Shown piece after piece: positions 1,383 to 35,697 of a stretch of DNA of 35,697 bases. The notes under the pieces were generated by a model that worked only from the letters and a program-made list of their open reading frames with translations, was not told the origin of the DNA and did no database searches. The position numbers were made by a program, and so were the translations under genes. Source of the stretch: an uncultured Clostridium sp. (lineage in GTDB: Bacteria; Bacillota; Clostridia; Lachnospirales; Lachnospiraceae); NCBI GenBank assembly GCA_900541315.1, contig UQJF01000012.1, forward strand, positions 1 to 35,697. Direction: 5' to 3'. Position 1 is the stretch's first letter. Each line of letters opens with the position of its first letter.

Positions 1383-2000
1383 TCACCCGGTCTTCATCCT
1401 CTTAATAACCTTCAACCGGGTAAATTCTTCCCTTTCCTTCTCTTCCAGGGCATTGGAAATGGACCTGGACAGCTCTTCATAATGAGGAATCGTGATGTTC
1501 TTTAAAGCATTGGCGCGCTTCTGGGTCTTCTTAATAGAATTTGCCAGCCGGTACGCAGAATTTTCCACCATAGACAGCTTAATGGTCAGCTCCTTTACCC
1601 GCTCAAACCGTTCTCTGGCAATATCCAGGGCTTCAGAGGTATTGTTAAACCCATAAGCCAGCTCCATAGGCTTTTCCTGGTGCTGGACTAAGGGGATCTC
1701 TGTTCCCATGATACTTCTTGCCTTGATCTTCACTGTATCATCCACAGGAACAGACATTCCGATCTCCTGGACATAATTGATGCCCAGTTCAATATTGGCA
1801 CTCTGCAGCGCTTCATAAGCAGCCTTAAACACAGTGTCGATCTCAGACTGTATCCCCTTTGCCTCATCGATCAGCCCCATAAGCTCACGGATCAGGATAT
1901 TTCTCTTCTTATCCATTAATCCGTAGCCCATAGTTGCCAGTTTCAGGGAGTTTTTCGCAGCAATCAGATTACCTTTTGTGGGAAATGTATTTGGATCCAT
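1383..2000 (-). CDS. V-type ATP synthase/ATPase subunit D
   Basis: Central-shaft subunit of the V-type rotary ATPase (the counterpart of F-type gamma). It sits inside the A3B3 head and turns with the membrane rotor. The 205 residues start MDPNTFPTKGNLIAAKNSLKLA, the conserved subunit-D opening, and run as two long coiled-coil helices (about 10-75 and 120-200) with a short beta section between, including the PLVQHQEKPMELAYGF segment. Length is normal. It is the last ATPase gene, 11 bases after subunit B, and its start has a GAGGTGAGCAGGA ribosome site. No terminator follows before mazG. Confidence 0.95.
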   Translation of the reverse strand: MDPNTFPTKGNLIAAKNSLKLATMGYGLMDKKRNILIRELMGLIDEAKGIQSEIDTVFKAAYEALQSANIELGINYVQEIGMSVPVDDTVKIKARSIMGTEIPLVQHQEKPMELAYGFNNTSEALDIARERFERVKELTIKLSMVENSAYRLANSIKKTQKRANALKNITIPHYEELSRSISNALEEKEREEFTRLKVIKRMKTG

Positions 2001-2011
2001 TCCTGCTCACC

Positions 2012-3385
2012 TCACTCCTCGTAGTACTGATCCAGAACCTTGGTATCAATACGGTCTAATTCCTCTCTTGGAAGCATACGCAAAAGTTTCCAGCCGATCT
2101 CCAGAGTCTCTATAATGGAGCGGTTCTCATGATGTGCCTGGCCAATAAAATGCTCTTCAAATGCTTTACCAAACTCCAGATACTTCTTGTCAATGGCAGA
2201 CAGCTCATCTTCACCAATAACAGATGCCAGCGCCCTGGCGTCACCTACCTTGGCATAACAGGAAAACAGCTGGTTTGCCACATCCTGATGATCTTTTCTC
2301 GTATAGCCTTCACCGATACCATCCTTCATCAGTCGTGAAAGAGATGGAAGCACGCTGATCGGTGGATAAACAGACTGGCTGTTTAACTGTCTGTCCAGGA
2401 CGATCTGTCCCTCTGTAATATAACCAGTCAGGTCCGGGATCGGATGTGTAATATCATCATTTGGCATAGTTAAGATCGGGATCTGGGTAACTGAACCATT
2501 TCTTCCTGCTACAATACCGGCTCTTTCATACAATGATGCCAGATCGCTGTACAGATAACCTGGGAAGCCCTTTCGTGAAGGGATCTCGCCCTTAGAGGAA
2601 GAAACCTCACGCAGCGCCTCTGCATAAGAGGTCATATCTGTTAAAATGACCAGGATGTGCATTCCCTTTTCATAAGCCAGATACTCTGCCAGTGTCAATG
2701 CGATCTTTGGCGTGATAAGCCTCTCTACTACCGGGTCATTTGCCAGATTGATAAACATGGCTACATGTTCGGAAACACCGCTTTCCTCAAAGGTACGGCG
2801 GAAGAAATCAGCCACATCATGCTTTACGCCCATAGCTCCAAAAACGATGGCAAACTTTTCGTCAGAATTATCACCTAATGATGCCTGCTGCACGATCTGG
2901 GCCGCCAGCTGGTCATGAGGAAGGCCATTTCCTGAGAAAATAGGAAGCTTCTGGCCACGGATCAGTGTAGTCAGTCCGTCGATGGCGGAAATTCCTGTAC
3001 GGATATAGTTTCTCGGATACTCACGGGATACCGGGTTTAATGGCTGTCCGTTAATATCCATACGGATATCAGAAATAATGTCCCCCAGTCCGTCAATGGG
3101 CTGTCCGATACCATTAAAGGTACGTCCTAACATTTCCTCAGAAACTGCGATCTCCATTGGATGTCCCGTCAGCCTTGTATGGGTATTTCTAAGAGCCATG
3201 CCGTCTGTTCCCTCAAACACCTGGATAATGGCTTTATCCCCGTAGATCTCAATAATACGTCCGATCTTCTTTGTAGTGCCGCCAACGGTCATTTCCACGA
3301 TCTCATCATAAGCTGCGCCCTGAACGCCCTCTAACACTACCAGAGGACCATTGATCTCACTTAAACCTAAATATTCAACTGCCAT
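2012..3385 (-). CDS. V-type ATP synthase/ATPase subunit B
   Basis: Non-catalytic nucleotide-site subunit of the A3B3 head. The 457 residues match the family length and contain the [21 protein letters not shown] region near 124-138 and ends of the ATPase alpha/beta fold such as the [11 protein letters not shown] and [16 protein letters not shown] segments. Where a catalytic subunit would have a Walker A loop, this one reads [15 protein letters not shown] (about 150-164), so it lacks the P-loop as expected for subunit B. The gene starts 12 bases after subunit A; the stop codon of A sits inside the AAGGAGG ribosome site, which suggests translational coupling and equal output of the two head subunits. 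Confidence 0.97.
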
Positions 3386-3397
3386 TTTAAGTCCTCC

Positions 3398-5164
3398 TTA
3401 TGCGTTACGCTCCAGCACATTCTCATAGAACGCATCAATCTGTTTCTTGTAATCATCAAACATGTCCAAACGGTCATTTGGCACATCATATTTAATAGAA
3501 ATGATCTTATCAAAGATCTTATCTTCTTTTAACACGGACATAGGCATTCCCATAGCGATCAGCGCTTTTGACTTCTTATACAGATATAAAATAATTTCCA
3601 TCATCTTAAACTGCTTGGTAAGAGGCACTGATGTATCGTCCTTGTGGAATGCATTCTGCTGCAGGAAACCTACACGGATGACCTTTGCGATCTCTAAGAC
3701 CAGTTTCTGGTCATCCGGGAGAACATCTGCACCGATCAGCTTTACGATCTCCATCAAACTGCTTTCCTGGGTCAATAACGCCATCAGGCGGTTTCTGTCA
3801 CTTACAAAGTTCTTATCTACGTTATCAATATACCAGGATGACAGATCATTTACATACTCTGAATAACTGGTCAGCCAATGGATAGCCGGGAAATGCCTTG
3901 CATAAGAAAGGTTCTTATCCAGTCCCCAGAAGCAGCGTACAAAACGTTTGGTATTCTGGGTAACAGGCTCAGAGAAATCACCGCCCTGAGGGGAAACTGC
4001 ACCGATAATGGTAACAGAACCTTCTGTACCGTTTAAATTGCGCATCATGCCTGCTCTCTCGTAGAAAGAAGACAGACGGGATGCCAGATAAGCCGGGAAG
4101 CCTTCCTCTGCCGGCATCTCTTCCAGACGGCCGGAAAGCTCACGCAAAGCCTCTGCCCAACGGGAGGTAGAGTCTGCCATGATCGCTACATGATATCCCA
4201 TATCCCTGTAATACTCTGCCAGTGTTACACCGGCATACAGACTTGCTTCACGGGCTGCAACAGGCATATTGGAAGTATTTGCGATCAATGTAGTTCTGTC
4301 CATCAGGAGATTTCCGCTCTTTGGATCGATCAGCTCTGAAAATTCTTCCAGAACCTGGGTCATTTCATTTCCACGCTCACCACAGCCGATATAGATAATA
4401 ACATCCGCATCAGACCATTTTGCGATCTGATGCTGGGTCATGGTCTTTCCTGTACCGAAGCCCCCTGGGATCGCCGCTGTACCTCCCTTTGCCAGTGGGA
4501 ACATAGTATCCAGGATACGCTGTCCAGTGATCAGCGGCCTGGTTGCCGGATAACGCTTTGCAGAGGGTCTTGGCACACGGATAGGCCACTTCTGGGTCAT
4601 GGTCAGCTTCTTTTCTGTTCCATCCAATAACTGCAAAGTAAGAAGAGGCTCATTAATGGTATATTCCCCATCTTCCACTACGTCTAATACATAGCCCTCT
4701 GTATCCGGCGGCACCATTACCTTATGGATAATAGCCCTTGTCTCAGGAACCTCTGCGATAATGGTTCCCGGAAGCACCCGGTCGCCTTTCTTTACTGTCA
4801 TATGTGTTTTCCATTTTTTGGAAGTATCCAGAGAATCTACACTGATGCCACGGCTGATATAGTAGCCGCTGCGCTCTGCGATCTTGCTTAAAGGACGCTC
4901 AATACCGTCAAAAATGTTATTTAAAATACCAGGAGCCAGCGTAACAGAAACCGGTGCTCCTGTTCCTGTTACCACCTCACCAGGCTTTAAACCACTGGTC
5001 TCCTCATACACCTGGATCGTTGTTTTTTCTGAGGTAAGCCCAATGACTTCGCCTACCAGATTTTCCTTACCAACGTACACCATTTCGTTCATCTGAAATC
5101 CGGGATCACCGGCCAGAGAAACTACAGGTCCGTTGATACCGTAGATCACACCTGTCTTAGCCAT
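3398..5164 (-). CDS. V-type ATP synthase/ATPase catalytic subunit A
   Basis: Catalytic subunit of the head. The 588 residues contain an N-terminal beta barrel (1-70), the bulge region that marks subunit A (about 115-190), and the nucleotide-binding domain with Walker A loop GGFGTGKT at 234-241 and the GCGERGNE motif at 261-267 carrying the catalytic glutamate. The GGFGTGKT form, rather than GAFGCGKT, is the version I know from bacterial V-ATPases of Clostridia, Bacteroidetes and Chlamydia. The ATG directly abuts the stop codon of the subunit E gene (zero spacing), with GGAGG inside the final codons of subunit E. Confidence 0.98.
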
Positions 5165-5758
5165 TTACTGCTTACCTCCCAAGTCAAACTTAAATTCATG
5201 GCGCGCTTCTTCCAGTTTTGTCTTAAAGGAACTGTCGATCAGGATATGTTTGGACGGGATCACCGCACGGATGCCTCCGTCAAAGGAATATTCGCTGATC
5301 TTTACAGTTACATTGTGGTGCATGGCCAGTCTGCGGGCCTTGTCCTCATCAGAGGGATCCATGTATACGACCATAGCCTCATCACCTGCAACTGCTTTAG
5401 CTGCTCCGATCTGTTTTTCCAACAGGTCCAGATAGTCTCTTGTCTCCATGAAATTAGCCAGTTTATCTCTTATCTCCACAAACAGCTTATCCTTTAATTC
5501 CTCCTGTCTGTGGCTTACTTCTCTTCTTAAGTCCAGCTGTCCAATGGAAAGCTTTTTGTTACGCTCACGCCCTAACTTTTCCGTCTCAGCCTCTTCCTGC
5601 ATTTTCGCCCGCTTCCTGGCATCTTCTGTATGCTCCTCATAGGCCTTATCAAGAGTTTTTGCGTAATCGTCCAGTATTTTTGCACTTTTTTCCCTTGCAT
5701 CTGTCATACAGATCTCCTGAAAATGCTTCAGCTTTTCCTCTGTTGTCAAGCTCTTCAC
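5165..5758 (-). CDS. V-type ATP synthase/ATPase subunit E
   Basis: Peripheral-stalk subunit; its N-terminal helix pairs with subunit G/H and its C-terminal globular domain binds the top of the A3B3 head. Residues 1-105 are a charged, heptad-like helix rich in Glu, Lys and Arg (for example EEAETEKLGRERNKK); residues 105-197 form a mixed alpha/beta domain ending FDGGIRAVIPSKHILIDSSF, a typical subunit E segment. The start is uncertain. The frame opens with GTG at 5758 without a convincing ribosome site; a TTG at 5749 has AGGTG six bases upstream and gives MTTEEKLKHF; an ATG at 5707 has AGGAG six bases upstream but would trim the helix. Confidence 0.9.
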   Translation of the reverse strand: MKSLTTEEKLKHFQEICMTDAREKSAKILDDYAKTLDKAYEEHTEDARKRAKMQEEAETEKLGRERNKKLSIGQLDLRREVSHRQEELKDKLFVEIRDKLANFMETRDYLDLLEKQIGAAKAVAGDEAMVVYMDPSDEDKARRLAMHHNVTVKISEYSFDGGIRAVIPSKHILIDSSFKTKLEEARHEFKFDLGGKQ

Positions 5759-5765
5759 CTGCTTT

Positions 5766-6074
5766 CTATAGTTTCAATCCAATGGCCTCGTTTACATAAG
5801 AGGTGATAAAGTCCGGCTTGCGGCCGGTTCCATGGCGGTCCGGGATCTCTACGATCAGCGGCAGCTTCCGCTCCAGCTTTACATTGTCGATGATCTCCGG
5901 AAATTCCCTGCCAAACTTTTCAGTTAACAGGATAATGCCAATAGATTTATCGGCCAGAACCTTATCCAGCTCACGTTTCAGTTCGTCCCTCTCATGTACC
6001 ACAGCCCCGTCAACACCTGCCAGGCGCATGCCGGTCCAGGTGTCGATGTTATCGCTGATGAGATACATTTTCAT
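5766..6074 (-). CDS. V-type ATP synthase/ATPase subunit F
   Basis: Small stalk subunit that binds subunit D in the rotor shaft. At 102 residues it has the family length and a Rossmann-like pattern: MKMYLISDNIDTWTGMRLAG at the start, then IGIILLTEKFGREFPEIID (about 47-65) and LPLIVEIPDRHG (74-85). The gene starts one base beyond the subunit K stop region, with AGGTAA about nine bases upstream of the ATG, and subunit E follows after seven bases. The close packing of K, F, E, A and B points to one polycistronic message. Confidence 0.93.
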   Translation of the reverse strand: MKMYLISDNIDTWTGMRLAGVDGAVVHERDELKRELDKVLADKSIGIILLTEKFGREFPEIIDNVKLERKLPLIVEIPDRHGTGRKPDFITSYVNEAIGLKL

Positions 6075-6075
6075 A

Positions 6076-6510
6076 TTAAAGCTTACCTAAGATCATAAAG
6101 GAAATGATCAGACCATACAGGCACACACCTTCGGCAAGACCTACGAAGATAAGGGATTTACCAAGAATAGAGCTGTCTTCACTGATAGCGCCCAGTGCTG
6201 CACTTGCTGCTGCAGATACTGCAATACCACCGCCTAAACAGGAAAGACCGGTTGCAAGAGCCGCTGACAGATAGCCCATTCCAGCTGCGCTGTTAGAAAC
6301 GGCTGCTGCTGTTTCCTCTGCTGCAAATGCATTTCCTGAGAACATGAAAGCTGCTGCTGCGATCATGGTCCCGAAGAATAAAAATACGTTTACACCAAGC
6401 GCTGTTTTATAACGTCCCTTTGTCTTTTCTCCTGCTGCAAATGCTCCAAAAGGTACACCGATGCTTAATACTAATGCTGCGCTTAATGTCATTTTAACTA
6501 ATAAACTCAT
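6076..6510 (-). CDS. V-type ATP synthase/ATPase subunit K (proteolipid rotor)
   Basis: Membrane rotor subunit that carries the transported ion. The 144 residues give four hydrophobic segments (about 7-26, 40-60, 77-103, 118-142). The second hairpin is a classic c-type unit: a glycine-rich helix (LGGGIAVSAAASAALGAISED) and a helix with the ion-binding glutamate E127 in FVGLAEGVCLYGLIISFMIL. The first hairpin lacks an acidic ion site and ends in an AFAAEE signal-like linker, so the protein has one ion site per four helices, as in other V-type K subunits. A strong AGGAG lies nine bases before the ATG, in keeping with the many copies needed per ring. Whether the ion is H+ or Na+ is not settled by the sequence; Gly, not Ser/Thr, follows E127. 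Confidence 0.93.
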   Translation of the reverse strand: MSLLVKMTLSAALVLSIGVPFGAFAAGEKTKGRYKTALGVNVFLFFGTMIAAAAFMFSGNAFAAEETAAAVSNSAAGMGYLSAALATGLSCLGGGIAVSAAASAALGAISEDSSILGKSLIFVGLAEGVCLYGLIISFMILGKL

Positions 6511-6563
6511 GATTGATTTCTCCTTTTTCTCTTGAGATTAAGATATCTGGATCTCCCATGTCT

Positions 6564-6579
6564 GCCTGACCTGCCAGGC
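6564..6579 (-). promoter_or_regulatory. hairpin in the subunit I to subunit K gap
   Basis: A GCCTG/CAGGC stem with a six-base loop lies in the 97-base gap between the I and K genes, the longest gap in the ATPase operon. It has no T-run, so it is not a usual terminator. It may mark a processing site or stabilise the K message, which must be made in excess; this is inference. Confidence 0.4.
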
Positions 6580-6607
6580 GGCACATGTTCCAGGTTCATT
6601 TATTTAT

Positions 6608-8536
6608 CTAATGCTTTCCATAAGGTTCAAATGCCCGTCCACTTCCTCTGTAGAACCGGCTGAACAGCTCATAATATTCCAGACGAAGGACCTGGATACC
6701 TACGATCAGGCCTTCCATACCGCATACAAACAGGTTTCCACCAATAACTACCGCCCAGTTAGGGCTTCCAGCCTCTGCGCCTGCAAGCATTAAAACCACC
6801 TGCATCATAGCTGCATGGCTCACTGCAAAAGCACCTACACGGACGAAGGAAAGTGTATTGGAAAAATAGCTTAAAAGCACTTCAAACAATTCAAATACGC
6901 CCTGGGTAATGAACATTCCCACGCCGCCTTCCATTTTCTGTGCCTTCTTCTCTATTATCGCTGACAATGGTTCCTTAAAGAACATAAGCAGCAACGGAAT
7001 AATAAACAGCACAGTCAGTACAATGGTTGCCGGAAGAGCATTACCACTCATATACAGGACAATAACTGCTGCCAGTGCAAAGTAAAATACAAGTCCGGCA
7101 GCACCGTTGGTGTCAAACCATGTTTTCTCTGTATTATGCTCCTTTACGCTGTTGATGATATTTAAGATCATACACAGCAGGATAATGCCCATACCAATGG
7201 CAATGGCAACTACAAACACTGTATTCAATTTTCCAATAAATGGAAGATCGGTCATAGCTTCCTGTGGTCTTAACCACATTGCGTCAATAATATCTTCAAA
7301 TCCGAACACGCTGCCGAACAGCACTCCGAATATGGTAGAAAAGAATCCGCAACAGGAAATAATGCCCGCCAGACGCATTTTTTTGAATTTATACAGTAAG
7401 AACCCGCCAATAAGAAGACAGAGTCCCTGTCCCGCATCACCAAACATAAAGCCAAACAGAATGGAATAAGTAATACCGATCAGGATCGTAGGATCGATCT
7501 CATTATAAGAAGGCAGACCATACATCTCCACATACATCTCAAATGGCTTAAACAGCCCCGGATTTTTCATTTTTGTAGGCGGAGTGCTCATGATGTTGTT
7601 GTGGTCATCTTCTATAATACAGAACGTGTCTGCATCCGATTCTATCTCTTTTTGAAACTTCTTTGCATCTGTTTCACTCATCCAGCCGCAAAGGATGTAG
7701 AATGTATGATAGCCATGCTTGGTGCAGGCTGCCATCTTTCGCACATCAAAGTTTACAGAAAAACGTTCCAGTCTGGTGCAGGCTGCTGCCAGCTCCTGTT
7801 TATTTTCATCCAGTGTCTGAAGGATCTTTCCTTCAAGCTCCTGTTTTTCTGCTTCCAGTGCCTTGATCTTATCATCTAACACATGCTCTGCTTCCATAGG
7901 AGTGCCTTCGTACTCATCTGGCAGGAAACAGCGTTCAAAATGCATAGACGCATAAATAGCATCGATCTTATCTGCCAGCTTCTCCGGCACAAAATAAACG
8001 ATCCATACATATTCCGCATCTTCCAGACACTTAAACATGACCGTATCAATGGTCTCATACACATAGCTGTTAAACTTGTCAAAGTATTCCCTGGAAATAC
8101 GGCCAAAACGGAACTTGATAAACTGGAATCCCAGGATCTCCTTTACACTGTAATTTAATTCTGTAAATGGTTCTACCTGGTCTTTTGATCGCTTTAATGT
8201 CTGGATCTGCGCCTGAAGCTCCTCTTTCTTATCATTCAGTTCTTTTAAGCGGCTGCTTATATCATCTACGGTTTTTGCTGCCTCTTCCTGGGACGGAAGT
8301 TCTTTCTCAGGAACTGACTGCAGCTGCCCGCCGATCTTTTCTGCCAGTTCCCTGGCAAGATTCAATTTCTCCTTATACGGATTGGTCTCAATATAAGGCC
8401 TTAAGTCTTTTACCGTCTTTAACTCTGACAGAGCATTTTCCAAATGAATCTCATATCTGGAAAGATAGGTATCCACCACCCGGTCAATGTCTGCCTTGGG
8501 GCCGGTAATGCTTAAGAACTTCATTTTCTCTATCAC
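6608..8536 (-). CDS. V-type ATP synthase/ATPase subunit I (a-subunit homologue)
   Basis: Stator membrane subunit that forms the ion half-channels next to the K ring and anchors the peripheral stalks. The N-terminal half (about 1-330) is soluble and rich in coiled-coil helix; the C-terminal half (about 345-630) has seven or eight membrane helices. The conserved arginine that faces the rotor glutamate is seen as R617 in IQVLRLEYYELFSRFY. Length (642) is normal. The start is GTG at 8536, with a GGGGG stretch nine bases upstream and only 14 bases from the subunit C stop; an ATG four codons later lacks a good ribosome site. Confidence 0.96.
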   Translation of the reverse strand: MIEKMKFLSITGPKADIDRVVDTYLSRYEIHLENALSELKTVKDLRPYIETNPYKEKLNLARELAEKIGGQLQSVPEKELPSQEEAAKTVDDISSRLKELNDKKEELQAQIQTLKRSKDQVEPFTELNYSVKEILGFQFIKFRFGRISREYFDKFNSYVYETIDTVMFKCLEDAEYVWIVYFVPEKLADKIDAIYASMHFERCFLPDEYEGTPMEAEHVLDDKIKALEAEKQELEGKILQTLDENKQELAAACTRLERFSVNFDVRKMAACTKHGYHTFYILCGWMSETDAKKFQKEIESDADTFCIIEDDHNNIMSTPPTKMKNPGLFKPFEMYVEMYGLPSYNEIDPTILIGITYSILFGFMFGDAGQGLCLLIGGFLLYKFKKMRLAGIISCCGFFSTIFGVLFGSVFGFEDIIDAMWLRPQEAMTDLPFIGKLNTVFVVAIAIGMGIILLCMILNIINSVKEHNTEKTWFDTNGAAGLVFYFALAAVIVLYMSGNALPATIVLTVLFIIPLLLMFFKEPLSAIIEKKAQKMEGGVGMFITQGVFELFEVLLSYFSNTLSFVRVGAFAVSHAAMMQVVLMLAGAEAGSPNWAVVIGGNLFVCGMEGLIVGIQVLRLEYYELFSRFYRGSGRAFEPYGKH

Positions 8537-8550
8537 TTCACATAACCCCC

Positions 8551-9570
8551 TTAAATCCTTGCTGTCATCCCATAACGTATCTGTTCGATTGTAGTTATGA
8601 TCTGTTCGATCTCTCTTTCTTTAAAATAAAGATAAGAGTTTAGTACTGCTGCTGAATAAGGCTCTTTCCTGCTTGTAAGCTCATAGATCTTATCTGTAAG
8701 CTCCTTTGCCCCGTTTCCAAGGCCATGTTCCATAAGCCCTTCTATATCCTGGCATTTGTACCAGCTGTTTTTGATCACGCCATAAACCTGTTCCATGTTT
8801 TCCGCCTGAGCCATGGTCTGGATTTCTTTTTTGGTAACATGATACTGGATCGGAATGATCAGCGCATAAATATCACCTTCTGACAGGTTATAATATTTTT
8901 TTGCCCGGCATATCCACTGAAAATTCAGCATATCCATTTTCGTGCCAAAGCACTGGGCCAGCATTTTTGCCTCTGCCTTTGAAAGATATTTATCCTTTAT
9001 CTTCCAGATAGTCTTGAAATAAAGCATATCCATAGCCGTTTCACAGGCCGGAAGCGTTGCTTTCCCCTGTTCTAAAAGCTTTTCTAACGGCTCATAGTAA
9101 GCAGAACCTTTTAACCCGCGGATCACATCTTCTATGCTCCTGCACTGGGACAGCTGCACCAGATCCATATCCGAATGTTTATCAAAAAATTCCTTAAACC
9201 CCGAAAGATCCTGGGCACTTTCTCTGTTTCCCGCTGCATTTCTGAGACAGGTTTTTAATATATCGATCTCATAGTGCATGAAATAAAGGTCCAGAAAACG
9301 CCTCTGCCCTACATTTGCAAACCGGTACAGCTTTGCAAAATCATGGTATTTGCTTAAGTTTAACAGCTGCTCGATCTTTCCGCGGTGAAGCTCATCCTCA
9401 GAAGCTTTGGAAAATGCCTTTTCATAAGATGGATTACTCCTTAAGAACTGAACCGCCTCAGGCACAGATCCCAGGTCTGCCATTGCCTCAAATTGCTCCG
9501 GGCGGATCCTGAAACGCTCCATAGCCTTCACCTTGGTGGAAATGCCGCTGTAACTGATCAGGCTTCCCAT
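8551..9570 (-). CDS. V-type ATP synthase/ATPase subunit C
   Basis: Socket subunit (d-like, the AtpC/NtpC family) that links the D-F shaft to the K ring. The 339 residues are almost wholly helical and show the family pattern of three related helical bundles, each starting with a segment like ILKTCLRN or MDMLNFQWICRAKKYYNLS. The C-terminal NSYLYFKEREIEQIITTIEQIRYGM is characteristic: it matches the end of archaeal and bacterial C subunits. It lies four bases after the G/H gene and 14 bases before subunit I. Confidence 0.93.
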   Translation of the reverse strand: MGSLISYSGISTKVKAMERFRIRPEQFEAMADLGSVPEAVQFLRSNPSYEKAFSKASEDELHRGKIEQLLNLSKYHDFAKLYRFANVGQRRFLDLYFMHYEIDILKTCLRNAAGNRESAQDLSGFKEFFDKHSDMDLVQLSQCRSIEDVIRGLKGSAYYEPLEKLLEQGKATLPACETAMDMLYFKTIWKIKDKYLSKAEAKMLAQCFGTKMDMLNFQWICRAKKYYNLSEGDIYALIIPIQYHVTKKEIQTMAQAENMEQVYGVIKNSWYKCQDIEGLMEHGLGNGAKELTDKIYELTSRKEPYSAAVLNSYLYFKEREIEQIITTIEQIRYGMTARI

Positions 9571-18157: not shown

Positions 18158-19645
18158 TTAGTGCAGATTTGTATACCCCATAAGGTCACGGTCCACCTGG
18201 CTGGCTACTTCTCTTCCTTCCCTGATAGCCCAGACAACCAGCGACTGGCCTCTGTGCATATCTCCAGCTACAAAGACTTTGTCCACATTGGTCTTATAGC
18301 TTCCTGCCTCTGTAGCTACGTTGGTACGTGCATTGCGTTCTACCCCAAATGCATCAGCCACATAATCCTGACAGCCTAAAAAACCGGCTGCGATCAGTAC
18401 CAGATCTGCAGGCACCTCTTTTTCACTGCCTTCTATCGGCACCATCATGGTACGGCCTGTTTCCGGATCCTTCTGTGATGTAAGGCTTACTAAGATCACC
18501 TTGCACAGCTTTCCTTCCCCATCCTTTACAAACTCTTTTACAGTCGTCTGGTAAACACGGGGATCAGAACCAAATACGCTGATGGCTTCTTCCTGGCCGT
18601 AGTCAGTCTTTAAAATACGCGGCCACTCCGGCCATGTATTGTTCTCTGCTCTCTTTACAGGAGGCTTTGGCATCATCTCTAACTGGGTCACAGAAGCGCA
18701 GCCCTGACGGATAGATGTTCCCACACAGTCATTTCCTGTATCGCCGCCACCAATAACGATCACATGTTTGTCTTTGGCAGAAATATAGTTTCCGTCCTCT
18801 AAACCAGAATCCAGAAGGCTCTTTGTATTTGCCTTTAAAAAGTCTACTGCAAAATAGATCCCAGCTGCATCTCTTCCAGGAACATCAATATTTCTCGGGT
18901 TAGAGGCGCCGCATGCAAGGATGATGCTGTCAAAATCCCGGAGAATCTTAGCTGCTTTGTAGTTTCTGCCTACATCTGCATTAGTAATAAAGGTTATTCC
19001 CTCTTCCTTCATTACATTTACTTTTCGGTCAATGACCCATTTTTCCAGTTTCATATTTGGAATACCATACATTAACAGGCCGCCTATACGGTCACTGCGC
19101 TCAAATACAGTTACGCTGTGTCCCCTTTTATTTAACTGGTCTGCTGCTGCCAGTCCTGAAGGTCCTGAACCGATCACTGCCACTTTCTTGCCAGTACGCA
19201 CTGTAGGTGGTTTTACCTTTGCATAGCCTTCTTCATATGCCTTTTCAATAATAGCGTGCTCATTTTCCTTAATAGATACCGGATCGCCATTTAAACCGCA
19301 GGTACATGCAGCTTCACATGGTGCCGGGCATACTCTGGAGGTAAATTCCGGAAAACAGTTGGTCTTTTTTAAACGGTTAAATGCCTGCTGCCAGTTTCCT
19401 GTATATACAAGATCATTCCACTCCGGGATCAGGTTATTTAAAGGACAGCCGCTGACCATGCCGCACATCATCACGCCGGACTGGCAGAAGGGAACGCCGC
19501 AGTCCATGCAGCGTGCACCCTGTAATTTCTGTTCCTCTTCACTTAATGGAATGTGGAATTCATTCCAGTTTTTAATGCGCTCCTTTGGTGGAAGCGCCTT
19601 TCCAGTTTTGCGTTCATAATCTAAGAATCCTGTAATCTTTCCCAT
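18158..19645 (-). CDS. gltD: glutamate synthase small (beta) subunit
   Basis: NADPH-oxidising subunit of glutamate synthase; it passes electrons through flavin and iron-sulphur clusters to the large subunit, which makes two glutamates from glutamine and 2-oxoglutarate. The 495 residues show the N-terminal cluster cysteines (C46, C49, C54, C67, and C106, C110, C114, C116), the FAD loop [15 protein letters not shown] (157-171), and the second nucleotide loop [12 protein letters not shown] (298-309) for NADPH; the C-terminal [17 protein letters not shown] is the usual FAD-binding end. It starts 13 bases after gltB, so the two make one operon. Confidence 0.97.
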
Positions 19646-19658
19646 TTTTGACGCCTCC

Positions 19659-22600
19659 TTAACCTCTGATGTTTACATAAAATGCTTCAATCTGTGCCTG
19701 CTCACTGTTTAAGCCCTTTTCTTCCATCTGCACAATGGCATTCATCATGCGGCGGTAGTCGTGAGGTACGATTTTCTTAAACTTAGGCAGATACTCGCTG
19801 AAATGGTCTAAGATACGCTTTCCTTTTTCGGAGTTGGTGTATGCCACATGCTCCTGGATCAGGCCTTTCAGCTCTAATACATCATATTTATTGGAGACGT
19901 CTTCAAAGGAAACCAGTTCCTTGTTCAAACGCTTGTAAAAGCTTCTATCTTCATCTAATACATAGGCAATACCGCCGCTCATACCAGCTGCAAAATTCTT
20001 TCCTGTAGGTCCAAGGACTACTACGCAGCCGCCGGTCATATATTCACAGCCATGATCACCTGTTCCTTCTACTACTGCAGTAGCTCCGGAGTTGCGGACA
20101 CAGAAACGTTCACCGGCAATCCCGTTGATAAATGCCTTGCCGCTGGTAGCACCATAAAGTGCAACGTTTCCTATTATAATGTTATCCTCTGCCTTAAACT
20201 GCACACCCTGGGGCGGATATACGATCAACTTGCCGCCGGATAAGCCTTTTCCGAAATAGTCATTGGAATCACCGGTCAGTTCCAGAGTCAGGCCCTTAGG
20301 GATAAATGCACCGAAGCTCTGGCCGCCGCTGCCGTTGCAGCTGATGGTAAAGGTGTCTTCCGGCAGACCATCCGGATACTTTCTGGTGATCTCAGAACCG
20401 AAAATAGTACCTAAAGTACGGTTTACATTACTTACATCCAGCTGAATGCTCTTTTTCTGGCCATTATTTAAAGCGCTCTTTAACTTCTTTAATAAAATGC
20501 TTTCGTCTACTGTCTCATCTAACTTAAAGTCATAGACCTCTTTTTCGTTATAACCAGCCAGCTTTACGCCCTCATATGGGTTATCCAGGATACGGCTTAA
20601 ATCCACTTCTTTTGCACGGCTGTATGGGATATCATCTTTTCTCTTTAACAGTTCAGTACGGCCTACCAGTTCATCTACAGTACGCACACCCAGTTTTGCC
20701 ATATATTCACGGAGTTCTTCTGCAATGAATTTCATAAAGTTTACAACATACTCCGGTTTACCCTTGAAACGCTTGCGAAGTTCCGGATTCTGGGTTGCAA
20801 TACCCATTGGGCATGTATCCAGATTACATACACGCATCATAACGCAGCCCATGGTTACAAGAGGAGCCGTTGCAAATCCAAATTCCTCCGCACCTAACAT
20901 ACAGGCAATAGCAACATCACGGCCGGTCATCAGCTTACCATCTGTCTCCAGGACCACTCTGTCACGAAGTCCATTCATGATCAGGGACTGATGTGCCTCT
21001 GCAACACCAAGCTCCCATGGAAGACCTGCATTGTAGATAGAGTTTCTTGGAGCTGCACCAGTACCACCGTCATAGGCAGAGATCAGGATAACCTGTGCAC
21101 CTGCTTTTGCAACACCTGCTGCAACCGTGCCAACACCAGCTTCAGAAACCAGCTTTACAGAAATCCTTGCTCTTGTATTAGAGTTCTTTAAGTCATAGAT
21201 CAGCTGTGCCAGATCCTCGATGGAATAAATATCGTGATGAGGCGGCGGGGAGATCAGGCTTACACCAGTAGTTGAATGTCTTGTCTTTGCAACCCACGGG
21301 TATACCTTCTTTCCAGGAAGCTGTCCTCCTTCACCAGGTTTTGCGCCCTGAGCCATCTTGATCTGGATCTCCTGGGCACTTACCAGATAACGGCTGGTAA
21401 CACCGAAACGGCCGGAAGCTACCTGCTTGATCGCAGAACAGCGGTTGTGGTCAGAAGGTCCCGGTACCAGACGATCCAGGCTTTCACCACCTTCACCTGT
21501 ATTTGACTTGCCATGGATCCGGTTCATGGCGATTGCCAGTGTCTCATGTGCTTCCTGGGAAATAGAACCATAAGACATAGCACCAGTCTTAAAACGGCGT
21601 ACAATAGAATCTACGCTTTCTACCTGATCGATAGGAATACCGCCATCTTCCGGATAATTAAAGTCCATAAGGTTTCTCAGATGGTAGGTCTTGCCCTGAT
21701 CGTCCAACGTAGCAGTATACTGCTTGAAAATGCTGTAATCGCCTCTTCTGGTTGCTTCCTGAAGGAGATGGATAGTTAGAGGATTGTATAAATGCTCTTC
21801 CTGTCCTGAACGTGACTTATGGCTTCCTACACTGTCCAAAGTCAGGTCTACATCCAGTCCTAACGGGTCAAAAGCTGCAGAATGAAGCACATCCACATCA
21901 TTTTCAATATCCTTTAATGTAACACCGCCAACACGGCTTACAGTATCCGTAAAATACTTATCTACTACTTCCTTTGAAATACCAATTGCTTCAAAGATCT
22001 GGGATCCCTGATAAGACTGGATGGTGGAAATACCCATCTTGGATGCGATCTTTACAATGCCGTGAAGCACTGCCAGATCGTAGTCTTTTACTGCTGCATA
22101 ATAATCTTTGTTTAACATACCAGTCTCAATGAGATAATGGATGGACTCATGAGCCAGATACGGGTTGATAGCACAGGCGCCGTAACCTAACAAAGTTGCA
22201 AAATGATGAACCTCTCTTGGCTCGCCGCTCTCTAAGATCAACGCTACACTTGTACGCTTCTTGGTGCGTACCAGATACTGCTGAAGGGCAGAAACAGCCA
22301 GTAAGGATGGGATCGGCACATGGTTTTCATCAATATCACGGTCAGAAAGGATGATGATATTGGCACCGTCCTTATGTGCACGGTCTACCTCTAAGAACAG
22401 GCGGTCAATGGCCTTTTCAAGGGAAGTGTTCTTATAATAGGTAATAGGGATCACTTCTACCTTAAAACCAGGTTTTTTCATATTTTTGATCTTCAGCAGG
22501 TCAGTTTCTGTAAGGATCGGATTTTCCACACGCAGGATCTTGCAGTTTTCCGGTGTTTCTTCCAGGATATTGCCCTCTTCACCTACATATACAGTAGTGG

Positions 22601-24200
22601 AAGTAACGATCTCTTCACGGATAGAGTCAATAGGCGGGTTCGTAACCTGTGCAAACAGCTGCTTAAAATAGTTAAATAATGGCTGATGCTTCTTAGAAAG
22701 CACTGCTAAAGGAGAATCAACACCCATGGCTGATACTGCTTCTGCTCCATTTAATGCCATTGGAAGGATCATGGTGCGGTACTGTTCGTAAGTATAACCA
22801 TAGGTCTTCTGTAAACGGAGGCGCTGTTCTTTGGCAAGTACAGGAGCAGCCTGGTTTGGCACTTTCAGGTCTTCTAACTCTACCAGATTGGAATCCAGCC
22901 ATTCACCATATGGATTCTTTTCTGCATATCGCAGCTTCAGCTCTTCATCGCTGATCATCTTGCCTTCTACTGTATCTACCAGCAGCATTTTTCCCGGACG
23001 GAGACGGTCTTTTTTCACGATCTTCGTCTGGTCGATATCAATAGCACCAACCTCAGAAGAAAGGATCATATAGCCATCATCTGTAATATAATAACGGGAA
23101 GGACGCAAACCATTCCGGTCAAGGACTGCGCCAACCATATCGCCATCTGTAAACAGGATAGATGCAGGTCCGTCCCATGGCTCCATCATCGTTGCATAAT
23201 AACGGTAGAAGTCCTTGATCTCTGAATCCATGTATTTATCATGTTCCCATGGAGCAGGGATCGTTACCATAACAGCAAGAGGCAGATCCATACCACTCAT
23301 GACCATAAATTCCAGAGCATTGTCCAGCATGGCGGAGTCAGAGCCTTCCTGATTAATAATAGGAAGGACTTTATGCATATCGTACTTGAAATACTCTGAT
23401 TCCATGTTCTCTTCACGGGCTACCATTTTATCTACATTGCCGCGGATCGTATTGATCTCTCCGTTGTGAACGATAAAACGATAAGGATGAGCTCTCATCC
23501 AACTTGGATTGGTATTGGTACTGAAACGGGAATGTACAATGGCGATCGCTGATTCATAATCCTTGTCCTGAAGGTCTGCAAAGAACAGCCGCAGCTCACC
23601 TACAAGGAACATTCCTTTATATACGATAGTTCTGCTGCTTAATGATACTACATAGGTATCTTCATTACTCTGTTCAAATACACGGCGGACTACATACAGC
23701 TTTCTGTCAAAATCCAGACCTTTCTTTACATTGTCCGGTTTTGCCACAAAGCCCTGGGCGATATAAGGCATAACGTCTACTGCCTTTTTGCCTAATACTT
23801 CCGGCGCAGTTGGAACCTTTCTCCAGCCAAGGAAGGTAAGACCCTCTTTCTTGACGATGATCTCAAACATCTTCATGGCCTGTTTTCTGGCAAGTTCATC
23901 CTGTGGAAAAAAGAACATACCAATACCGTACTCTCTCTCATCTCCCAAGGTAATACCAGCCTGGGAAGCTGCTTTCTTGAAGAAACGGTGGGAGATCTGG
24001 AGCATGATCCCCACACCATCACCGGTCTTTCCTTCTGCATCCTTACCTGCTCTGTGCTCTAAGTTTTCTACAATGTGGAGTGCCTGGTCAACTGTTTTAT
24101 GTGTTTTGATACCTTTGATGTTGGCAACTGCGCCAATACCGCAGTTGTCATGCTCAAAACGAGGGTCATACAGTCCCGGCAGTTTCTGTTTGGGGTCCAT
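19659..24200 (-). CDS. gltB: glutamate synthase large (alpha) subunit
   Basis: Catalytic subunit of glutamate synthase in ammonia assimilation. The 1513 residues match the bacterial family. The N-terminal class II amidotransferase domain (about 20-430) has its nucleophile at C20 (HDNCGIGAVA); the first 19 residues would be removed on maturation. A central domain, an FMN-binding synthase barrel (about 850-1200) and a C-terminal right-handed beta helix of GxxGxxxG repeats (about 1260-1480, GGQSFGAFIPKGL, YGATSGKAFINGIAG) follow. The 3Fe-4S cysteines are in GCVMMRVCNLDTCPMG near 1115-1127. GGAAG lies six bases before the ATG. A strong promoter and a folded leader precede it, which suggests control at the RNA level. 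Confidence 0.98.
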   Translation of the reverse strand: MDPKQKLPGLYDPRFEHDNCGIGAVANIKGIKTHKTVDQALHIVENLEHRAGKDAEGKTGDGVGIMLQISHRFFKKAASQAGITLGDEREYGIGMFFFPQDELARKQAMKMFEIIVKKEGLTFLGWRKVPTAPEVLGKKAVDVMPYIAQGFVAKPDNVKKGLDFDRKLYVVRRVFEQSNEDTYVVSLSSRTIVYKGMFLVGELRLFFADLQDKDYESAIAIVHSRFSTNTNPSWMRAHPYRFIVHNGEINTIRGNVDKMVAREENMESEYFKYDMHKVLPIINQEGSDSAMLDNALEFMVMSGMDLPLAVMVTIPAPWEHDKYMDSEIKDFYRYYATMMEPWDGPASILFTDGDMVGAVLDRNGLRPSRYYITDDGYMILSSEVGAIDIDQTKIVKKDRLRPGKMLLVDTVEGKMISDEELKLRYAEKNPYGEWLDSNLVELEDLKVPNQAAPVLAKEQRLRLQKTYGYTYEQYRTMILPMALNGAEAVSAMGVDSPLAVLSKKHQPLFNYFKQLFAQVTNPPIDSIREEIVTSTTVYVGEEGNILEETPENCKILRVENPILTETDLLKIKNMKKPGFKVEVIPITYYKNTSLEKAIDRLFLEVDRAHKDGANIIILSDRDIDENHVPIPSLLAVSALQQYLVRTKKRTSVALILESGEPREVHHFATLLGYGACAINPYLAHESIHYLIETGMLNKDYYAAVKDYDLAVLHGIVKIASKMGISTIQSYQGSQIFEAIGISKEVVDKYFTDTVSRVGGVTLKDIENDVDVLHSAAFDPLGLDVDLTLDSVGSHKSRSGQEEHLYNPLTIHLLQEATRRGDYSIFKQYTATLDDQGKTYHLRNLMDFNYPEDGGIPIDQVESVDSIVRRFKTGAMSYGSISQEAHETLAIAMNRIHGKSNTGEGGESLDRLVPGPSDHNRCSAIKQVASGRFGVTSRYLVSAQEIQIKMAQGAKPGEGGQLPGKKVYPWVAKTRHSTTGVSLISPPPHHDIYSIEDLAQLIYDLKNSNTRARISVKLVSEAGVGTVAAGVAKAGAQVILISAYDGGTGAAPRNSIYNAGLPWELGVAEAHQSLIMNGLRDRVVLETDGKLMTGRDVAIACMLGAEEFGFATAPLVTMGCVMMRVCNLDTCPMGIATQNPELRKRFKGKPEYVVNFMKFIAEELREYMAKLGVRTVDELVGRTELLKRKDDIPYSRAKEVDLSRILDNPYEGVKLAGYNEKEVYDFKLDETVDESILLKKLKSALNNGQKKSIQLDVSNVNRTLGTIFGSEITRKYPDGLPEDTFTISCNGSGGQSFGAFIPKGLTLELTGDSNDYFGKGLSGGKLIVYPPQGVQFKAEDNIIIGNVALYGATSGKAFINGIAGERFCVRNSGATAVVEGTGDHGCEYMTGGCVVVLGPTGKNFAAGMSGGIAYVLDEDRSFYKRLNKELVSFEDVSNKYDVLELKGLIQEHVAYTNSEKGKRILDHFSEYLPKFKKIVPHDYRRMMNAIVQMEEKGLNSEQAQIEAFYVNIRG

Positions 24201-25794: not shown

Positions 25795-26937
25795 CTATAA
25801 GAAATCACGGATCCTCTTGCTTCTTACCGGATTGCGAAGTTTGCGCAGTGCTTTGGCTTCGATCTGACGGATACGCTCTCTTGTTACGTTAAATTCTTTT
25901 CCAACCTCTTCCAGTGTTCTTGGATGTCCGTCTTCCAGACCAAAACGAAGTACGATTACCTGACGTTCTCTCTCTTTCAGATCTCCTAAAAGTGCATCAA
26001 TGTGTTCCCTTAACATAACAGACTCTACATTTCCCTCAGGAGTCACTACATTGCTGTCAGCAACAAAATCACCAAGGTTGGAATCATCTTCCTCACCGAT
26101 AGGTGTCTCCAGGGAAGCTGGCTCTCTGGCGATCTGCATGATCTCCATAACCTTATCCTCTGTCATATCAAGTGCCTCTGCCAGTTCTGCAACAGATGGC
26201 TCATAGCCCAGTTCCAGTGTCAGCTTACGCTGCATCTTTGACATCTTATTAATGGTCTCTACCATATGCACTGGTACACGGATCGTTCTTGCCTGATCAG
26301 CTAACGCTCTGGTCACTGACTGACGGATCCACCATGTTGCATATGTACTTAACTTATAGCCTTTTGTATAATCAAACTTTTCAACGCCCTTGATCAGTCC
26401 CAGGTTTCCTTCCTGGACCAGATCCAGAAAGCTCATTCCACGGCCTGTATAACGCTTTGCAATGCTGACAACCAGACGCAGGTTTGCCTCGATCAGTCTT
26501 TCTTTGGCAGCTTCATCCCCATCTGCCTTGCGCTGTGCAAGCTCCAGTTCTTCGTCTGCTGTAAGAAGAGGTACTGTACCGATCTCTTTTAAATACATAC
26601 GTACCGGATCTTCTGTTCCGATACCCTCTAAAAGATCTACGGCATCCAGATCGATATCCTCATCTTCCGCATCCTTCATAAAGCTGTCATCATCCAAGTC
26701 AAGATCAAGATCAATATCATCCAGGGCAGGATCTGCATTCAACATCGCTTCGTCCAGTACGGGAACCACGTCAATATTACGGTTCTCCAGATAACTGTAA
26801 ATCTGATCCATCTGCTCTGGTGTCAGGTTATCTCCTACAAAGAAATCGTTGATTTCACCTGCATCCACAGTGTTATGCTTGGATTTTGCATGGGCAACCA
26901 GCTTTTCCAGCTTTTTTAAAAAATCGTCCTTTTCCAA
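25795..26937 (-). CDS. rpoD: primary sigma factor RpoD/SigA
   Basis: The housekeeping sigma factor that guides RNA polymerase to -35/-10 promoters like those in this window. The 380 residues show an N-terminal region with a strongly acidic stretch (62-104, [13 protein letters not shown]), region 1.2 (about 107-139), region 2 (143-215: [21 protein letters not shown] and [19 protein letters not shown]), region 3 (about 224-300) and region 4 with the -35 helix-turn-helix (about 340-365, [20 protein letters not shown]). The start is TTG at 26937: an AAAGGA lies nine bases upstream and no ATG occurs in frame before residue 43. In many Firmicutes dnaG precedes rpoD; here it does not, and rpoD has its own strong promoter and terminator. 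Confidence 0.98.
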
Positions 26938-31764: not shown

Positions 31765-31792
31765 ATATACCACTCGTGTTTTTATCTGTCAA
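31764..31792 (-). promoter_or_regulatory. promoter of argF
   Basis: A perfect TTGACA (31787-31792) and TATATT (31764-31769) with 17 bases between. The -35 box lies inside the last codons of the upstream patatin gene. Confidence 0.85.
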
Positions 31793-32942
31793 GAAAAATC
31801 CTTTTTCTTTTTCTCTGAATAATAAGAAGCAGCTCCTGAGGGGTATAAATTTTAAAACGGCTGATCTTATATTGTCTTGCCAGGTGCTCTAAAAGACTTA
31901 AATATAACTCCTTATAATCCCAGTCATCTTTTAAATGCAATGCCCTTGCCAGCTTGGGAAACCACTCTTCTGTATATCTGCGGCAGGAGGCCATCTGGGC
32001 CGTAAAAAGCTCTGTTTCTGAAAGTTCCGGCCAGATATCTGCCAGTAATTCCGGGGCCTCTGCTAAAAGCCGGTTAAAATAATAGATCTCGCTTTCCGGG
32101 GCATCCAGATAAAAAGCCCTTCCTTCCAGACCGTAAAGCATCCGTTTAGCATCAAAATAGCCAAGGACCATGTTTTTCCTCGCCCGTCTTCTGTCAAACT
32201 CCAAAAGTCCGCCTAAATCCTGTCTGGGTGCTACATGGTAAAGATGGATGTCATCAGGAACTTTTAAATGACGTTCTGTATCAACACCATATCCGTAAAT
32301 GCGGAAGACCAGGATATCCTTGTACCCCTTTTCCATAAGCACATCTATGGGTACATTATTTACTCCGCCACCGTCCATATAATACTTGCCTGCCAGTTTT
32401 TCCCGCCTGAAGCCGATCAAATAAGCACTTGCCATAAGCATATCTGCGATCTCGCCTTCCGGCACTTCTTTTACATTAACTACCATAGGCTTTCTGTCAC
32501 TTAAAGAATAGGTAACTACATACAGCTCTTTTTCGGAATTTCGTATTTTTTCTTCATCTACTACTTCTTCAATAAGACTGCGCAGCGGCCCAATGTCAAA
32601 GCCTCTGTCTTTTAATACTTTTTTTGCAGCCGGGATCAGTTCAGAAAGCCCTAAAACCGCAATATCCTTTAATCCGGATGTTTTTAACTGCTCCATCAGG
32701 TCATCATCCACATCCATAACCCTGGAATAGCGGATGGTCTCCCATATTTTTTCCGCCTTTTCAAAGTCATCCATTGCGATAAGGGCACCATTTAAAGCTC
32801 CTACAGAGGTTCCGGCGATCCCTTTTATGTGGATACCTGCCTCCTTCAATGCCTTCCATGCACCGATCTGGTAAGCGCCTTTGGCTCCCCCTCCCTCTAA
32901 TACCAGGCCATATTCTATATTAATATCCAGCTTTAATTCCAT
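31782..32942 (-). CDS. patatin-like phospholipase family protein
   Basis: A serine acyl-hydrolase that would act on membrane lipids or other esters. The 386 residues have all parts of the Ser-Asp dyad fold: the oxyanion loop EGGGAKGAYQ (16-25), the nucleophile elbow GTSVG with Ser46, and the catalytic aspartate D190 in YMDGGGVNNVP. The C-terminal 150 residues are helical and do not match a family I can name; there is no signal peptide or membrane helix, so it is probably cytoplasmic. The start overlaps the end of the NfeD-like gene by ten bases. I infer a membrane-lipid role shared with that partner. Confidence 0.93.
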   Translation of the reverse strand: MELKLDINIEYGLVLEGGGAKGAYQIGAWKALKEAGIHIKGIAGTSVGALNGALIAMDDFEKAEKIWETIRYSRVMDVDDDLMEQLKTSGLKDIAVLGLSELIPAAKKVLKDRGFDIGPLRSLIEEVVDEEKIRNSEKELYVVTYSLSDRKPMVVNVKEVPEGEIADMLMASAYLIGFRREKLAGKYYMDGGGVNNVPIDVLMEKGYKDILVFRIYGYGVDTERHLKVPDDIHLYHVAPRQDLGGLLEFDRRRARKNMVLGYFDAKRMLYGLEGRAFYLDAPESEIYYFNRLLAEAPELLADIWPELSETELFTAQMASCRRYTEEWFPKLARALHLKDDWDYKELYLSLLEHLARQYKISRFKIYTPQELLLIIQRKRKRIFLDR

Positions 32943-33285: not shown

Positions 33286-34071
33286 TTATACGTTCCGTCT
33301 CTGCCTTGCCGCTTCAAACATTAAAACAGAGGAAGCCACCGCTGCATTTAAGGACTCCACCCGTCCTGCCATGGGGATCTTAATATAGGTGTCAGCAATT
33401 GCTGCCATCTCATCTGTCAGTCCCTTGGCTTCGTTTCCAATAAGGAAACCTGTAGCTTTAGTATAGTCTTCCTGGTCATAATTATGCATGCCTTTTAAAT
33501 GGGCTGCATACAAACGGATCCCCGCCTTTTTCATCTGCCCACAGGCTTCTTTCAGGTCAGGTGCATATACAAAAGGCACTCGCAGCACAGATCCCATGGT
33601 AGAACGAATCACCTTTGGATTGTAAATATCTGCTGTATCACTGCTCATGACCACACCGGTAATGCCCGCTCCTTCTCCTGCACGGATAATGGTTCCCAGA
33701 TTTCCCGGATCCTGGATATTTTCCAGGATCATGATCAGCTTAGGTGTACTGGTCTTCTTTAAAATGTCTTCCATAGTACACTTTTTCTGCTTTGCAACAG
33801 CTAAAACCCCCTGGGGAGTCTTTGTATCTGCCATATAATGCATCACTTCGTCTGTAACGATCTCGAATTTAAAGCCCCTGAGCCACTTTTTATTTTCTTC
33901 CTGCTTTCCAAAGCTTTCTGTGATATATAAAATCTCCACATCATCTGGCTTATATTCCCTGCACATGCGCAGTCCCTCAGCCACATATACGCCTTCTTCC
34001 CTGCGGGCTTTAGCCTTATCTCTCAGGTTTGACACCCGTTTCACCTGCTTATTTGAAGTGCTGTTTATCAT
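33286..34071 (-). CDS. TrmH/SpoU-family RNA 2'-O-methyltransferase
   Basis: Methylates a ribose in rRNA (23S, RlmB or TsnR type) or tRNA using S-adenosylmethionine; the exact nucleotide cannot be told. The 261 residues have an N-terminal substrate-binding domain (1-100, with GVYVAEGLRM) and the knotted SPOUT domain with its three motifs: ENIQDPGNLGTIIRAGEGAG (117-136), TGFLIGNEAKGL (207-218) and IPMAGRVESLNAAVASSVL (232-250). It starts one base beyond the nadE stop region, with GGGAG nine bases before the ATG inside the end of nadE, so translation is coupled. Confidence 0.93.
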   Translation of the reverse strand: MINSTSNKQVKRVSNLRDKAKARREEGVYVAEGLRMCREYKPDDVEILYITESFGKQEENKKWLRGFKFEIVTDEVMHYMADTKTPQGVLAVAKQKKCTMEDILKKTSTPKLIMILENIQDPGNLGTIIRAGEGAGITGVVMSSDTADIYNPKVIRSTMGSVLRVPFVYAPDLKEACGQMKKAGIRLYAAHLKGMHNYDQEDYTKATGFLIGNEAKGLTDEMAAIADTYIKIPMAGRVESLNAAVASSVLMFEAARQRRNV

Positions 34072-34072
34072 A

Positions 34073-35672
34073 TTATCTTTCTCCCTTTTCTATCATCTCC
34101 AGCTCTTTTAACCACAGGCGGCTGCAGGCATCACTTGGCATACGAAGATCACCTCTTGGTGAAACAGCCACAGAACCTACCTTTGGACCATCTGGCAAAC
34201 AGGAACGCTTAAACTGCTGTGCAAAGAATCTGCGGTAAAATGTTTTCAGCCACTTTAAAATAGTCTCCCTGTTATAGCTTCCTTCAAAAGCCTGAACAGT
34301 CAGGCGGAATATCTTTGCCGGACTGTAACCGAAGCGGAGCACATAGTACAGATAGAAGTCATGTAACTCATAAGGTCCAACCAGATCTTCTGTTTTCTGG
34401 GAAATTTTTCCATCTTCAGGCGGCAGAAGCTCCGGACTTACCGGTGTATCAAGAACATCTAAAAGCACATCGGAAAGCTCCTTTTCTCCACAGGTGTCTG
34501 CGTAATAACGCACCAGATGACGGACTAATGTTTTCGGCACAGATGCATTGACGCCGTACATAGACATATGATCCCCATTATAGGTTGCCCAGCCTAATGC
34601 CAGCTCTGACATATCACCTGTACCAATGACCATACCGCCTACTTCATTGGCAATATCCATTAATATCTGTGTACGCTCTCTCGCCTGGCCATTTTCGTAA
34701 GTTACGTCATGTTTTTCCATATCATGGGCAATATCTTTAAAATGGCCAGTAACAGCATCACGGATATTGATCTCTGTTAAAGAAGCTCCGGTTTTCTTTG
34801 CCATGGTGCAGGCATTTGTATAAGTACGGTCTGTAGTACCGAAACACGGCATGGTAATGCAGTGGATATTCTCTCTTGGGATCCGAAGCATGTCAAAGGC
34901 ACGGATCGTTACTAAAAGTGCCAGTGTAGAATCCAGACCGCCGGAAAGACCGATCACTGCATGTTTGCAGTTTGTATGTGCCAGACGCTTTTTCAATCCC
35001 ATTGCCTGGATAGAAAGGATCTCTTCGCAGCGGCGCTCTCTCTGTCCTGCATCATGAGGCACAAATGGAGCCGGATCAATGTAGCGGAGTATCTCATCAT
35101 TCTTCTGGCCTGCTTTTTTGCTGTCCTTCTTTGTAATATCCTCTGTATTTAATTCAAAATAAACTGTTTCATAAGAAGAAGCCTTATTTTCTTCATCCTT
35201 AAATGTAGTCATACGGCGGCGTTCGCTGATGATTCTTCCAAGATCCATATCTGCACAGATGCAGGCATTTTTAAACCGGTCGGACTGTACCAGGCAGGTA
35301 CCATTTTCTGCAATAATATTCTGACCTCCAAATACCAGATCCTGGGTAGACTCTCCTTCTCCTGCATTTGCATAAATATAACCGCACACCAATCTTGCAG
35401 ACTGTCCGCAGATCAGATCATAGCGATAACGGTCCTTTCCTGTAGTTTCATCGCTGGCAGAGCAGTTGGCGATCACAGTTGCTCCTGCCAATGCATGAGA
35501 AATGCTTGGCGGACATGGAACCCACACATCTTCACAAAGCTCTGCTGCCAAAACCAGCTCCGGCATGGTACGGCATGAAAACAGCAGCTTCATACCCATA
35601 GGGATCTGAAGTCCTTCCCATTCTGTCATCTCCACTTTTTCCATTCCCGGTGTAAAGTGGCGCAGCTCATAA
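34073..35672 (-). CDS. nadE: glutamine-dependent NAD+ synthetase, 5' truncated
   Basis: Makes NAD+ from nicotinate adenine dinucleotide, ATP and the ammonia released from glutamine. What is left has the end of the glutaminase (nitrilase-like) domain, including the nucleophile cysteine in AAELCEDVWVP (35 kDa-type NadE), and the whole synthetase domain with the ATP loop LSGGLDSTLAL and the motifs FGTTDRTYTNA, GTGDMSELALGW and SYNRETILKWL. Full enzymes have about 640 residues; roughly the first 110, with the catalytic Glu and Lys of the glutaminase, lie beyond the contig end. The frame appears to begin at an ATG at 35689, but that ATG and the residues MCIRD are adapter sequence; true codons begin at 35671. 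The next gene is coupled to its stop. Confidence 0.95.
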
Positions 35673-35697
35673 CTGTCTCTTATACACATCTGACGCT
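35673..35697. other. Nextera/Tn5 sequencing-adapter remnant
   Basis: The last 25 bases read CTGTCTCTTATACACATCT followed by GACGCT. This is the reverse complement of the Tn5 mosaic end plus the start of the Nextera read-1 adapter, so it is library sequence left at the contig end and not genomic DNA. Confidence 0.97.

Follow-up and report, generated by a model that had tools for sequence, protein, structure and literature searches.

Features at the window end

The window, the whole stretch of 35,697 nucleotides that was analysed, ends inside nadE, which is read on the minus strand, and its last bases are those of a sequencing adapter (Table 1). Downstream of nadE, Pfam places a SpoU-type rRNA methylase (33286-34071) and a patatin-like phospholipase (31782-32942). 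Elsewhere in the window, the list of open reading frames (ORFs), inspected by eye, includes what we take to be A/V-type ATPase subunit genes (1383-9570), gltD/gltB-like genes (18158-24200) and an rpoD-like gene (25795-26937).

Table 1. Features of nadE and of the adapter sequence at the end of the window
Feature	Position	Strand	Evidence
Genuine portion of nadE (glutamine-dependent NAD(+) synthetase), lacking its 5' end; 532 codons and a stop	34073..35671	-	NF002730 profile; comparison with P0001
Remnant of the Nextera adapter Tn5ME-A (25 of its 33 bases)	35673..35697	-	Exact match; oligo as printed in PMC4248319
Tn5 mosaic end, 19 bases, within the adapter remnant	35673..35691	-	Sole match, 0 mismatches; 0 of 100 shuffles
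AGCGTC, the Read 1 arm's final 6 bases, adjoining the mosaic end	35692..35697	-	Distinguishes library adapter from transposon end
False ATG start codon, from the adapter	35687..35689	-	Window sequence; ORF list

The genuine nadE product scores 708.8 bits with the NAD(+) synthase profile NF002730 (cut-off 473), its residues 1-528 aligning with positions 132-674 of 677. The closest full-length relative, P0001 (656 aa, 95% identity), contains both a CN_hydrolase domain, at residues 7-273 in Pfam, and an NAD_synthase domain. The junction between adapter and genome falls at Tyr125 of P0001, with 124 residues preceding it. As this tyrosine corresponds to the first genuine residue of the window's protein, about 124 N-terminal residues are missing, and the apparently complete NadE is 5' truncated, as had been claimed from the sequence alone. 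The truncation leaves the CN_hydrolase domain incomplete; in the window fragment Pfam reported NAD_synthase only, with no CN_hydrolase match at E 0.001. The underlying gene encodes an ordinary NadE with the CN_hydrolase plus NAD_synthase architecture.

The plus strand of the window terminates in CTGTCTCTTATACACATCTGACGCT. These 25 bases match, with zero mismatches, the reverse complement of the 3' portion of Tn5ME-A, which is the oligo on the Nextera Read 1 side, and comprise the 19-base mosaic end followed by AGCGTC. The original prediction had described them as Nextera transposase read-through sequence; the alignment bears this out at 25 of 25 positions and refines it, the arm being specifically that of the Read 1 side oligo. 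The match points inward and extends to the final base of the window. The text of Tn5ME-A printed in PMC4248319 and PMC7402673 agrees with the window bases, and the plus-strand orientation is the read-through form that is trimmed by pipelines; the strings trimmed in PMC6460022 include CTGTCTCTTATACACATCTGACGCTGCCGACGA. The minus-strand sequence of the window opens with AGCGTCAGATGTGTATAAGAGACAG up to the junction and continues with TTATGAGCTGCGCC. The mosaic end has a single match in the window at up to three mismatches, and none was found in 100 shuffles; for any given exact 25-mer, about 6e-11 occurrences are expected in the window under uniform base composition. A chance match was rejected on these grounds. 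At the opposite end of the window no mosaic end was found at up to three mismatches.

The false start of nadE

The minus-strand ORF at 34073-35689 opens with ATG TGT ATA AGA GAC AGT, which encodes MCIRDS. As originally proposed, the ATG and the residues MCIRD are supplied by the adapter, the adapter bases of the window translating as RQMCIRD. The judgement that this start is false also stands, with the refinement that the codon for S (35674-35672) is a hybrid, with AG derived from the adapter and the third base, T, from the genome. Since two-thirds of this codon is adapter, the fully genuine protein starts at Y (35671). It is because the adapter codons and the hybrid codon are in frame that the ORF list contains a “complete” NadE of 538 aa, beginning MCIRDSYELRHF, of which 532 residues are genuine. 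In the relevant frame the Read 1 oligo translates as RRQRQMCIRD followed by AG, and the Read 2 oligo, in the same phase, as LVGSEMCIRD, again followed by AG. The adapter is thus open in the nadE frame and contains an ATG, so ORF callers can assign a false complete start.

The start had further been called a well-known artefact. It is an artefact; the epithet found no backing, as PMC text searches returned no paper on MCIRD or related adapter peptides. Likewise, no paper on adapter-made protein starts or on adapters at contig ends appeared in the results of the literature search.

Library adapter or transposon end

A mosaic end may also be a genuine part of a genome. It is conceivable, if highly improbable, that an engineered mini-Tn5 lies in nadE and that the contig is broken inside the transposon. 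The 19-base mosaic end is common to the window and mini-Tn5, and engineered insertions with this sequence exist, for example in E. coli MG-phbCAB-3-6; however, the cargo-side bases before both mosaic ends of that strain read ...GGTTG rather than the Nextera arm. The cargo side in the window reads AGCGTC, identical to the Read 1 arm at six of six bases, and not as transposon cargo. The mini-Tn5 insertion was rejected on account of this arm. It has been reported that the mosaic end replaced the wild-type IS50 ends in vitro (PMC4248319), and natural Tn5 is therefore not expected to carry it. An engineered Tn5 construct in the source nadE, with a flank coincidentally equal to the Nextera arm, is more improbable still.

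The two mosaic ends of E. coli MG-phbCAB-3-6 (L201:706-724 and 5001-5019) lie around phbCAB, one adjoining a truncated tdh and the other a truncated yhhH. Their 9-base flanks differ and, together with the truncated genes, this means that simple insertion with target duplication may not account for L201. In 5426 E. coli genomes searched at E up to 1, the query matched in just two, this strain and a sister of it. In the E. coli, plasmid and phage records the 125-base query met pieces of the adapter and was nowhere covered to 80%; those records hence hold no homologue of its genomic part.

nadE upstream of the junction in relatives

The original prediction proposed that homologues be searched for a continuation of nadE upstream of the codons for YELRHFTPG, and such a continuation was found in both proteins and genomes. 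The protein relatives analysed were the 120 listed of 7986 found. At least 100 residues lie upstream of the junction in 116 of these 120, the exceptions being P0003, P0005, P0023 and P0050. In the 117 usable proteins among those listed, the residue before the junction is Phe (116) or Tyr (1), preceded by Glu in every case, and a Lys stands ten residues before the junction in all 117. It probably serves as the catalytic Lys in the glutaminase triad known from the M. tuberculosis enzyme. By eye, the first ~210 residues of P0002 are strongly unlike those of P0001 and the remainder is nearly identical; judged from its sequence, P0002 is possibly a chimeric assembly or a recombinant nadE.

The genome relatives were the best 80 of 591 confirmed stretches, many of them titled Lachnospiraceae, with a best identity of 74% among those kept. 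The junction was placed by tblastn coordinates in all 80 loci; for L051 and L080 this meant extrapolating without gaps from query residues 22 and 23, which makes the upstream residues of these two unreliable. Upstream of the junction, 78 of the 80 kept loci keep the frame open over 100 codons or more, or 76 of 78 without L051 and L080; in L042 a stop is met 26 codons upstream, and L044 reaches its contig end 2 codons upstream. Directly before the Tyr position, Glu-Phe is present in 76 of the 80 loci and Glu-Tyr in two, the other two being the unreliable pair. Column identity between the window and its relatives, measured in the 76 usable loci (L026, L051 and L080 were dropped since their match does not begin at residue 1, and L044 for its edge), is 24.1% over the 25 adapter columns, about the level of random bases, and 69.2% over the next 21 columns. 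The exact mosaic end is present in none of the 80 kept loci. A native short NadE truly starting at MCIRDS, the least probable reading of all, has in its favour an ORF that is open with an ATG and a stop, but it was rejected, as it would require an adapter 25-mer to arise against the chance expectation given above, relatives are only 24% identical in the adapter columns and continue the frame upstream, and it would be without the Lys kept in all usable listed proteins.

The same adapter in other records

The mosaic end recurs at the ends of numerous unrelated contigs. A scan of viral contigs gave at least 120 stretches with a mosaic end, and all 120 were analysed; the ends of these stretches are not necessarily contig ends. 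In 125 of their 127 matches, at most 100 bases lie outside the mosaic end, the exceptions being L200 (101 bases) and the internal match of L085. By the longer exact suffix, 55 of the 127 matches look like the Read 1 arm, 67 look like that of Read 2, and five have no outside base. At least six bases fit a Nextera arm in 106 of the 110 matches with six or more outside bases, and 5 of the 122 matches with any outside base misfit over all bases compared. For 62 whole viral contigs, hand-picked by stretch length from 80 listed stretches, 65 of 66 matches are no more than 100 bases from the end. The viral contig L085 (2141-2186) contains the Read 1 Nextera oligo mid-contig at 2154-2186, 11 bases past a pair of Ns, which is probably the product of a bad scaffold join.

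A match to the query was also present in 40 phage records, with query base 29 or an earlier one as the end of the match in 17 of the 20 listed rows, and in 10 plasmid records, where this holds for all ten rows. Query base 29 is within four bases of the adapter's end. Phage records with the 25-base adapter include LR597636.1 (46650-46675), KY883634.1 (131943-131967) and MK373775.1 (149749-149773), and some of the phage-record adapters lie under annotated hypothetical proteins. Internal adapter sequence of 24 or 25 bases was seen in plasmid records such as NZ_CP073907.1 (39964-39988) and NZ_CP072739.1 (16-39), some of these plasmids being large.

Origin, significance and comparison with known sequences

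We consider it practically certain that the end of the window is an ordinary assembly artefact, in which leftover Nextera adapter gives a cut-off nadE a false start. Four marks of Nextera contamination are present: an exact mosaic end, an adjoining arm that agrees in AGCGTC at each of six bases, an inward-pointing position at the end of the sequence and absence from the 80 homologous loci kept. The identity of the 25 bases, the junction and the upstream continuation of nadE in relatives are direct observations, and the history of read-through and trimming is inferred. A tagmentation library fragment would have ended within nadE, and sequencing would have passed beyond the insert and entered the Read 1 side adapter, an oligo presumably encountered at the end of Read 2 or of a merged read. 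Trimming would then have failed to remove the adapter, and the assembler would have retained 25 of its bases as the contig terminus.

The adapter-made start matters only as a warning on data quality. It makes a truncated nadE appear complete and, as the fragment has no CN_hydrolase match at the threshold used, the artefact would mislead domain annotation. The glutaminase (CN_hydrolase) half is hidden from Pfam, and the enzyme could appear to be ammonia-dependent. An N-terminal MCIRDS or MCIRDR, or GSEMCIRD where the other arm is involved, can serve as a cheap flag for adapter-made truncations.

Compared with known NadE structures, the window fragment resembles PDB 3dla, with residues 1-525 aligning with 132-674 of the chain, and differs from both 3dla and NF002730 in the absence of ~124 N-terminal residues. 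A second NadE fragment, P0023, stands alone among the 120 listed protein relatives in having MCIRD within its first 20 residues, and it may have the same artefact at another position of nadE. Its N-terminus, which begins MGSEMCIRDRNIIAENG, has MCIRD in the same frame and fits a Nextera adapter as that of the window does; judged from the protein alone, it fits the Read 2 oligo with its GTG as the start. P0023 differs from the window in bearing the Read 2 arm (MGSEMCIRDR) and in that its genuine sequence starts 117 residues deeper in the protein. With Nextera Tn5ME-A read-through the window shares the same 25 bases, pointing into the insert and placed at the end of the sequence, and differs from the full oligo in that the outer 8 of its 33 bases are missing.
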